This document shows, piece by piece, positions 3,001 through 4,878 of a stretch of 64,000 nucleotides of DNA (its first letter is position 1; each line of letters begins with the position of its first letter). The translations under genes were made by a program, and so were the position numbers. The DNA is taken from NCBI GenBank assembly GCA_963920765.1, contig OY987251.1, forward strand, positions 2,854,501-2,918,500, given 5' to 3'. The stretch is from Ulota crispa. Lineage: Eukaryota; Streptophyta; Bryopsida; Orthotrichales; Orthotrichaceae. The notes beneath the pieces are model-generated. The model searched no databases and was not told the origin of the DNA. It was given only the letters and a program-made list of their open reading frames with translations.

Positions 3001-4878
3001 AATCTCGGAGACCATTGGGAGTTCTTCTCCATACAAGAAGATTCTCGTTATGATGTCGTCTAAGAGTTCCTCAAACAGTTTAATTTTGTTGAAAACTACC
3101 GTGCCGCTTTTGTGTTTAAAGGTAGCAACACTCAGAAGCGTGAACTAAGGATTTTGGAGTACGGAAAATCAATCGATGAACTTTGAAAAGAAATATTGTC
3201 AAGTTAGGAAGAGGAAACCCTAAAATATTGGCATCAATTTCAAAGTTCCAATTGCAAGCATTTGTTCACAAAGATATTTTTCAAAGTGTCAAAAATCGCT
3301 AAACATGCATAGTTGTGAGTAGGAGATTCTAAAACAGAAAGACGCTTAGTTAGTGAAGTCTTTAGTTGTGTGCTCATTCAATCATAATACTACCTTGGGG
3401 AGTTCTTAAATAGCCAATTGGGGCTCTCAAAACTGTCATGCCATGCCAGTCACCCATAACCATCACTTAGTCACCCATAACCAATTTTTTTTTCTATTTA
3501 TTAGTCATTGACACAAGGTGCAAAAGTACGTAACCCTAATGGGATGGGGACACTCATGGAGAGGGGGTGTCACTACCTTAAGGTAGTTTGCTCTAAATGC
3601 AACCCTTTCATGTAAAGCATGCCATACTTGGGTAGCTCAAGAATGGACATGAAGTGGTCCTTGTAAATTATTGCAAGAGCCAATCACACCCCTTGGTTTC
3701 TTCTCATCTCTTTACAAGTTGCAAAGGTTTATGAAAGGTCTAGAGTCACAAATAGGTGTCTACTATAAAAGTAAATTTTTTTGAAAAATCATCAAACAAT
3801 TCAATATTGCTTTGAACAATATGAAAAAAACTGTCTTACACTTAGCCATCCATTTCTCTCTTTGCCTGAAAATTATACAAAAAAAACTTTTATGTCTTGG
3901 AAGCCCATGAAAAGGCAGATTAGATCAGCCCTTAAAGAGACGGTTATCGAGCATACTACCTTACAATCATCCTTTTCAGCTTTGGTATGAGCTTGAGATG
4001 ATCGTTGCTTGTGTACGACAAAAAACTTTCATGTCTTGGAAGCCCATGCCATGAAAAGGCAGATCAGTGACGGTTTTCGAGCATACTACCTTACAGTCAT
4101 CCTTTTCAGCTTTGGTATGAGGTTGAGATGATCGTTGATTGTGTGTACTTGTTGACCTGCCTGCCTGCAGATTGATTTCTGGGCAACCAAGCTGAAGTTG
4201 TACAGCTGGTACGCACCGGCAACGAAAGCGGATACGTGGGGGTGTGCAATACTGTCAACGCAGAGGCTAATCCACGGGGACAAGCGGGTGCTTCCATCGC
4301 CACGTGGAGAGAATGCGTGCTTCCAGCAAGCGGAGTTCGACTTCCGGGGCAAGCGTGTGCAAGTGATGAACACGCATTTCGGAGTGCTGGCCTCGGACAT
4401 TCAGCTGCAAGCAGCTGCCATTGCAAGCGCAGGTTTAAGATAACAGCAGTTCCTTTTCATATGTGGGCACCTGATGTATATAAAGGTTCACCTACTCTGG
4501 TTACAGCATTCTTTTCTATCGCACCTAAAATATCTATTCTTGCCAATATGGTACGTGTTTTTATTTATAGTTTCTATGATCCAACATGGCAACAACTACT
4601 CTTTTTTTGCAGTGAATCTGACGAAGCCGTTGGTTTTGTCCGGGGACTTCAACATGGCGCCCTTGTCAGCTCCGTACAACACCACGGCGGCATCTGGCGT
4701 CCTGGACAGCCGGGTGGCTCCAAACGGACCCTGGCAGGGCCCTGCAGATCGTGACCCCGGTGCCGGCCTGGTGTTCTCCTCCCCACCGCTGAAATGCGTG
4801 TCGTGGACGGAGCCCCGCTACGACCAGGCCATGACCTCTGACGGGTATCCCATTGTCGCTGCTTTCAACTTCGTTTAA
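1..4878 (+). CDS. Membrane protein with C-terminal CWH43/PGAP2IP-like EEP domain, 5 exons (5' end probably partial)
   Basis: Exons read as 1-1242, 2431-2636, 2797-2845, 4171-4432 and 4613-4878; all introns are GT-AG and the phases match, giving 674 codons. Exon 1 encodes several hydrophobic segments around an acidic, Ser/Arg-rich loop (about residues 50-205). Exons 2-5 encode the EEP fold: LNFNIQQG (Asn454), LQETDT (Glu486), NTHFG (His568), GDFN (Asp598/Asn600). This order and the membrane-EEP fusion match the CWH43 C-terminal/PGAP2IP family, which acts in GPI-anchor lipid remodelling in fungi and animals; the plant role is inferred. The last catalytic motif, normally SDH, reads SDG (Gly664). 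The ATG at base 1 coincides with the window edge, so upstream membrane segments may be missing. Confidence is high for the family and exon structure, low for activity. Confidence 0.85.
1244..2112. repeat. Tandem duplication (about 275 bp) inside intron 1, copies split by a MITE
   Basis: Bases 1244-1519 and 1829-2112 are two diverged copies of one segment. Both contain the same ordered blocks, such as CACATTTC(T)TAGCACCTGTCAT, GATTGGTCAGTTTTCACAA and TTCCCGGAGTTTGTTGGGTA. A foldback MITE lies exactly between them. Intron 1 runs from 1243 to 2430. Confidence 0.85.
1520..1828. mobile_element. Foldback MITE with about 130-bp terminal inverted repeats
   Basis: The left end GGGAAAAATTCATGGATACC is matched in reverse complement by the right end GGTATCCATGAAATTTTCCC. 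Inverted similarity continues inward about 130 bp through two more ATTTCA(T/C)..ATACCCCTG-type modules, so the transcript would form a long hairpin. No clear target duplication is visible because the element sits at the joint of the intron-1 tandem repeat. It has no coding capacity. The superfamily is not certain; ends of this kind are often Mutator-like. Confidence 0.8.
3884..4147. repeat. Tandem duplication of the 3' end of intron 3
   Basis: Two copies of a roughly 125-135-bp segment lie head to tail (about 3884-4019 and 4020-4147). Each starts with CTTT(T/C)ATGTCTTGGAAGCCC and ends near GAGATGATCGTTG. The second copy runs up to the acceptor of exon 4 at 4170. Intron 3 spans 2846-4170; its remainder (2846-3880) is AT-rich with no recognised element. 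Confidence 0.8.
4434..4613 (+). other. nad2 (fragment): Nuclear copy of mitochondrial DNA: nad2 fragment forming intron 4
   Basis: Read in the frame starting at 4434, this stretch encodes about 60 residues of NADH dehydrogenase subunit 2, including [42 protein letters not shown] and LLFFCS. It has no stop codon. It occupies intron 4 (4433-4612) almost base for base: the donor GT precedes or overlaps the Phe codon, and the acceptor AG lies within the final Ser codon AGT, after a natural T-rich run. The host exons on either side continue the EEP domain without a gap. The identification comes from recognising the family motifs, not from a search. Confidence 0.88.

Follow-up and report, generated by a model that had tools for sequence, protein, structure and literature searches.

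The window, the whole 64 kb stretch of DNA analysed, is part of contig C10 (15.8 Mb) of the Ulota crispa genome, which comprises 275 Mb in 157 contigs. It carries, probably as a moss nuclear gene, the sequence for a membrane protein resembling PGAP2IP/CWH43 whose C-terminus holds an EEP domain (PF23021, E 3e-25; PF23226, E 3e-22); we take this PGAP2IP-like protein to be linked to CWH43. The start of the gene lies upstream of the window, inside which there are five exons; their borders were placed by eye from reading frames and GT-AG dinucleotides prior to the comparison with homologues, and the homologues agree with them. The host reading frame runs uninterrupted from window base 1 up to the stop codon. 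The coding exons are as follows.

1..1242, forward strand: coding exon, probably exon 2 of the gene and extending upstream of the window, which encodes the second PGAP2IP transmembrane domain (PF23021)
2431..2636, forward strand: coding exon in which the EEP (nuclease-like) domain begins
2797..2845, forward strand: coding exon (LQETDTMHIVHGNLDL)
4171..4432, forward strand: coding exon ending in phase 1, after ...IASA and one G
4613..4878, forward strand: final coding exon (VNLTKPLVLSGDFN... up to the stop codon)

Apart from the intron between the last two exons, the introns of the gene within the window are 160, 1188 and 1325 nt long. A genome search at E <= 0.001 matched only the gene's own exons, and no paralogue was detectable. 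The protein ends in ...TSDGYPIVAAFNFV (window 4820-4878), with Gly at the position of the catalytic His (SDH) of other EEP enzymes. We do not take the SDG to mean that the gene is dead, since the D-G pair is present in all seven aligned sequences; because Gly replaces the catalytic His in 7/7, the EEP domain of the host protein may not be a nuclease. The first intron in the window contains a direct duplication (1325-1519 and 1917-2111, 93%; 1252-1292 and 1834-1874, 93%, within 1252-2111), and between its copies lies a 137-nt inverted repeat (1510-1646 and 1702-1838, 91%, 55 nt apart); the arrangement looks like a hairpin-type element. Elsewhere in the window, at 11533-11913, a 187-bp unit is present in two copies with 85% matches.

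The last intron differs from the others in its content.

4433..4612, forward strand: predicted GT-AG intron of 180 nt, the last of the gene, called from sequence (GT at 4433-4434, AG at 4611-4612)
4434..4612, forward strand: nad2 fragment, 176 of 179 bases identical to C156:96011-96189 in an ungapped alignment

Contig C156 (104,638 bp) holds an uninterrupted nad2 frame of 447 amino acids and was taken as the mitochondrial genome; the best protein match of this frame is 99% identical over 98% of the query, and the named bests are Marchantia (95%) and Sphagnum (96%). The earlier note had proposed that the intron coincides with an open nad2 fragment and had asked for an alignment to mitochondrial nad2. 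The alignment to the moss's own mitochondrial contig bears this out with exact coordinates: E 4e-84, 98.3% identity, 3 mismatches and no gap, so that mitochondrial homology spans 179 of the 180 intron bases. The nad2 frame remains open through the fragment and ends in ...WQQLFFFCS. No other mitochondrial match was found in the window (E <= 1e-3), a comparison to which 10,000 of the 104,638 bases of C156, being N, could not contribute. When the genome was searched with the insert, five places were listed, namely the intron itself, C156, C1, C5 and C6. The C1 copy is 99.7% identical over at least 10 kb, the C5 copy 96% over about 4 kb, and the C6 copy is 293 bp long at 83%. Beyond the mitochondrial DNA and these three mitochondrial insertions no introner-like copy family was seen, although divergent copies may escape such a search; introners being multi-copy, identity with an introner is not supported. 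Neither is descent from a group II intron, as the source lies inside the uninterrupted nad2 coding frame of 447 amino acids.

Whether such a piece could leave the transcript was judged from its splice signals and from the protein on both sides. Excision of the 180 nt gives IASA/VNLTKPLVLSGDFN (IASA/VNLTKP), and P0001, the nearest of the proteins found, has IASVVNLTRPLVLSGDFN (IASVVNLTRP) at the joint, without a residue gained or lost. P0001, a protein of 843 amino acids, shares 83% identity with the host protein over the searched region and was one of six proteins above the threshold in a single search; its contigs are at most 3,407 bp long, and it probably derives from transcripts. Other homologues vary in length at the joint and for this reason offer no test of it. 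The canonical GT-AG sites, in phase 1, thus restore a frame continuous with P0001, in accord with the earlier reading that the host protein continues correctly on both sides and that the junction falls in codon 587 (Val, counting from window base 1). A search for orthologous DNA with a pattern taken from P0001 gave 4 matches in genome_contigs and 1 in viral_contigs, none of which was confirmed as a relative. If the intron were retained, the protein would be truncated by a stop after three codons (G-L-R-stop). Two features inside the fragment bear on this.

4441..4443, forward strand: in-frame TAA met upon retention
4551..4558, forward strand: competing donor-like site GTACGTGT inside nad2, its strength judged by eye

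The GC content is 60% in the exons and 35% in the intron, and 13 of the 18 bases preceding the acceptor CAG are pyrimidines. Among mitochondrial 179-mers, 480 of 188,562 (0.25%) end in YAG with at least 13/18 pyrimidines, and 157 (0.083%) also start with T; the cut-off of 13 is the finding's own value, and a first cut-off of 14 (226/188,562) had excluded the finding. The donor, cagGTTTAAG, is without G at +5, and no branch-like YTNAY motif occurs within 45 nt of the acceptor, the nearest being 46 and 50 nt away, which makes the efficiency of splicing uncertain. A GTTT donor is likewise seen in the second intron within the window, where again no YTNAY motif lies within 60 nt. Use of the 4551 donor with the same acceptor would give a 62-nt intron and leave the stop codon in the mRNA. 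The predicted RNA fold of the intron with 20-nt flanks was no better than that of shuffled sequences (z = +1.28). Taken on these signals, 4433-4612 is probably a spliced intron.

The two joints can be read base by base. At the left joint the host sequence ...GCAAGCGCAG is followed by a G and then by nad2 TTTAAGATAACAG, where the mitochondrial DNA reads GTAGGTTTTTTA/TTTAAG; at the right joint nad2 ...CTCTTTTTTTGCAG is followed by host TGAATCTG, where the mitochondrial DNA instead continues with CATTGC.

4429..4432, forward strand: host GCAG at the left joint, supplying the exonic AG before the donor and repeated at 4609-4612
4433..4433, forward strand: the sole intron base not contiguous with nad2
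4609..4612, forward strand: GCAG at the right joint, common to nad2 and to the host left of the site, containing the acceptor CAG

As G4433 lies outside contiguous nad2 and T4434 is its first base, the donor GT spans the joint, just where the earlier note had placed it. G4433 may be filler, a host base, or a mitochondrial G belonging to AGGTTTTTTATTTAAG, in which case 7 nt would have been lost between short direct repeats rich in T. The origin of the last four bases of the intron is ambiguous, because GCAG is common to nad2 and the left host flank. The suggestion that the acceptor came from nad2 codons stands for the pyrimidine tract, which is nad2; the final GCAG with its AG may be nad2 or host sequence. 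The GCAG repeat can be read as a 4-base microhomology or as a 4-base target duplication, which look the same here and are both signs of break repair. At least four bases are in common with the host flank at 0.33% of mitochondrial positions, and at least two at 6.0%; since a spliceable intron end requires AG and sharing of at least two bases occurs at this 6.0%, the shared GCAG adds only modest extra evidence.

What the host could have contributed to the intron is accordingly limited to G4433 and possibly the shared GCAG. This bears on the possibility that an older intron existed at the site and that a break within it was resected almost to the exon borders and filled with nad2, so that an old position acquired new content. 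The position and phase are ordinary, and the gene has other introns in the window, of 160, 1188 and 1325 nt, which is in keeping with this explanation; however, the near absence of any host remnant speaks against it, as do two further insertions of mitochondrial DNA in the genome. One of them (L037, C1:8471672-8472195) is a 235-nt mitochondrial insertion within an ordinary intron, of which 36 nt remain on the left and 110 nt on the right, and another (L083, C1:38308914-38309437), judged from its left side, follows shortly after a GTAAGT donor and is probably also inside an existing intron. The filling of an older intron is on balance unlikely. The gene hosting the former insertion begins with MEEGRKDRCVKAVLFDLDDTLV and appears HAD-like by eye; the exon before the latter ends in RRLGIG and appears acetyltransferase-like by eye.

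The three mismatches to the mitochondrial DNA lie at the following positions.

4481..4482, forward strand: mitochondrial CG now TA, two transitions at one CpG (C4481T, G4482A)
4599..4599, forward strand: mitochondrial T now C within the pyrimidine tract (T4599C)

The two residues affected, Glu and Phe in nad2, are the same in each of the 10 nad2 proteins that were read out of 120 listed, so the substitutions arose in the nucleus. The divergence of 3/179 amounts to 1.7% (95% interval 0.35-4.8%), intermediate between that of the C1 copy, in which about 10 kb contain 25 substitutions, and that of the C5 copy, in which about 1.9 kb contain 58. Of the 58 changes in the C5 copy, 41 are C>T or G>A, and 17 of its 88 CpG positions have changed; the intron substitutions, two of three at one CpG, fit such nuclear decay. 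An A at 4482 is common to the intron and the C5 copy. Because this is a CpG site, because 17/88 CpG positions changed in C5 and because C5 has two changes absent from the intron, parallel decay suffices to account for the common A, and derivation from the C5 nuclear copy was set aside, though a C5-like ancestor would still be conceivable. Insertion of an RNA copy was not supported either: at 4599 the intron has C and the mitochondrial DNA T, which runs counter to C-to-U editing, and in one case a G has become A.

The same substitutions bear on the trustworthiness of the assembly. Plant libraries are usually rich in mitochondrial reads, and such reads mis-joined into a nuclear contig could in principle have produced the fragment. 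The fragment, however, sits on a 15.8 Mb contig and bears two substitutions, at 4481 and 4599, that the C156, C1 and C5 copies all lack, which places it in the nucleus and makes a mis-join unlikely; it also lies flush at the splice sites. We regard an artefact of this kind as very improbable.

To see how often mitochondrial insertions resemble introns, four of 11 mitochondrial stretches were compared with the genome, which gave at least 45, 52, 50 and 56 matches, drawn from the 36-39 that were scored among 146-193 first candidates per stretch. The genome thus carries a heavy load of mitochondrial insertions, with at least 45-56 matches per 10 kb of mitochondrial DNA in these four stretches. 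From the 203 matches listed, the finding among them, 80 short insertions were hand-picked as controls, each with 150 bases on both sides; the control set is one of short, isolated insertions, long insertions, dense clusters and small pieces having been left aside. With the finding counted and both strands considered, 22/81 insertions have GT and AG no more than 3 nt from their ends, and 7/81 no more than 1 nt; GT-AG ends therefore carry little weight by themselves. The six controls with GT-AG within 1 nt all lack an open sense frame over 240 spliced nt, and their pyrimidine counts stay below 13, the highest being 12 (L086). In three controls with looser ends (L034, L042 and L060) there are 13 or 14 pyrimidines, but no open spliced frame. 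At least one open frame among the six frames over the joined flanks is present in 7/80 controls and two in the finding; since controls have one as well, an open frame across the joined flanks is not a unique sign. Only one of the 81 insertions, the finding itself, unites flush GT-AG with 13 pyrimidines and an open spliced frame, and no second intron made of mitochondrial DNA was seen among the 80 others. Two controls (L043, C6:9230129-9230657, and L070, C2:7161708-7162419) whose GT and AG lie no more than 1 nt from the ends, but which have no open spliced frame, are chance look-alikes. Among the larger insertions, one near the end of C1 (L007, C1:40853001-40863000) spans at least 10 kb at 99.7% identity, with 21 of its 25 changes C>T or G>A.

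The insertion might instead have disrupted the gene, being unspliced or inefficiently spliced, in which case the window would contain a young broken or polymorphic allele. The donor without G at +5, the lack of a near branch-like motif, the internal GTACGT, which by eye looks stronger, and the absence of a paralogue are all in keeping with such an allele, whereas the joint occurrence of flush GT-AG, pyrimidine tract and open spliced frame in 1/81 insertions is not, and neither is the state of the protein. Its frame is otherwise open, and where six other aligned proteins agree it departs in 5 of 138 columns (133/138 conserved residues kept). Counted in the same way, P0001, its nearest relative, departs in 2/135, a lower figure that speaks against the reading favoured below, and the remaining proteins depart in 4/137, 0/133, 21/154, 3/136 and 25/158; within exons 4-5 the departures are 1/51 in the host protein and 0/50 in P0001. 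Such conservation is compatible with a living gene and may be compatible with a very recent loss as well. A broken allele appears to us less probable still than the filling of an older intron.

We therefore favour, with a probability of about 80%, the view that the intron arose when mitochondrial DNA was taken up at an exonic break, as an insert that could be spliced from the outset. A double-strand break would have occurred in the then-last exon of the host gene, and a fragment of nad2 mitochondrial DNA would have been captured during its repair. The right joint would have used or duplicated GCAG, so that the exon, ending in ...GCAG, precedes G/T on the left and the insert ends in ...TTTTTTTGCAG on the right. 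The insert would thus have been equipped with a donor at the joint, with the nad2 pyrimidine tract and acceptor, and with an AT-rich body (35% GC compared with 60% in the exons), and the spliceosome would excise all 180 nt. As no paralogue is detectable, failure to splice the insertion would have cost the moss this gene; the insertion could survive since splicing would leave the protein unchanged. At the level of DNA this upholds the earlier suggestion of an intron created by a mitochondrial insertion: the host remnant is at most G4433 with possibly GCAG, the predicted protein is unbroken and the identity to mitochondrial DNA is 98.3%. A broader version, in which the insert was spliceable at once through a break at a GCAG proto-splice site and in which such insertions are a recurrent source of introns in this insertion-rich moss, seems doubtful; recurrence is so far not supported, because the 80 other insertions gave no second case.

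The earlier note also held that few clear cases of intron gain from organelle DNA are known, and here it needs correction: introns made of mitochondrial DNA are already in print, and the nad2 intron is not new in kind. In the chlorarachniophyte alga Bigelowiella natans, an intron of a GTPase superfamily gene is derived from mitochondrial DNA (Curtis and Archibald 2010, as described in PMC4757882). As far as this secondary description goes, both cases are spliceosomal introns of nuclear genes formed from a mitochondrial fragment, and they differ in the organism and in the gene. In Daphnia, a gained intron matches mitochondrial 16S (Li et al. 2009, as cited in PMC3443670 and PMC4202315), and in the available parts of these two articles the gained introns are attributed to repaired staggered breaks and are accompanied by short direct repeats. 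Both the Daphnia and the Ulota intron appear to be recent gains from mitochondrial DNA; in Daphnia, however, the source is an rRNA, and intron-bearing and intron-free alleles were studied in populations, whereas here there is one genome. For gained introns of Drosophila, the portions consulted of PMC3296678 report mitochondrial similarity and propose break repair with mitochondrial filler, but the matches are weak (E = 0.032 for the example in the figure) compared with E = 4e-84 here.

In plants, organelle insertions within introns and new pieces of exons have been described, with joint microhomology of 1-7 bp (PMC7037861), and in Amorphochlora the majority of plastid and nucleomorph insertions are intronic (PMC12730881). 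To judge from the sections of these two papers at hand, the insertions belong to the same class as ours, but there the DNA lies within introns or was made exonic, whereas the Ulota intron starts and ends with the insert. In the accessible parts of two NUPT papers (PMC11110229 and PMC12572781) no intron consisting wholly of organelle DNA was seen, and the terms "mitochondrial", "numt" and "organell" are absent from a study of human intron gains (PMC12124190). Introners, of which none are reported in land plants according to the part consulted of PMC9860276, resemble the nad2 insert as gene-inserted sequences that are spliced out, and differ in being multi-copy where the nad2 insert has no copy family. 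No land-plant intron made of mitochondrial DNA was found in the literature searched, mostly outside subscription papers.

The origin of introns is an old question, most introns being too old to reveal their source. Here the source, both joints and the later mutations can be read base by base, which would make this locus a very clean example of the birth of an intron. If the proposed origin is true, related mosses should carry an uninterrupted exon at this position, and Ulota crispa should splice the nad2 piece out.
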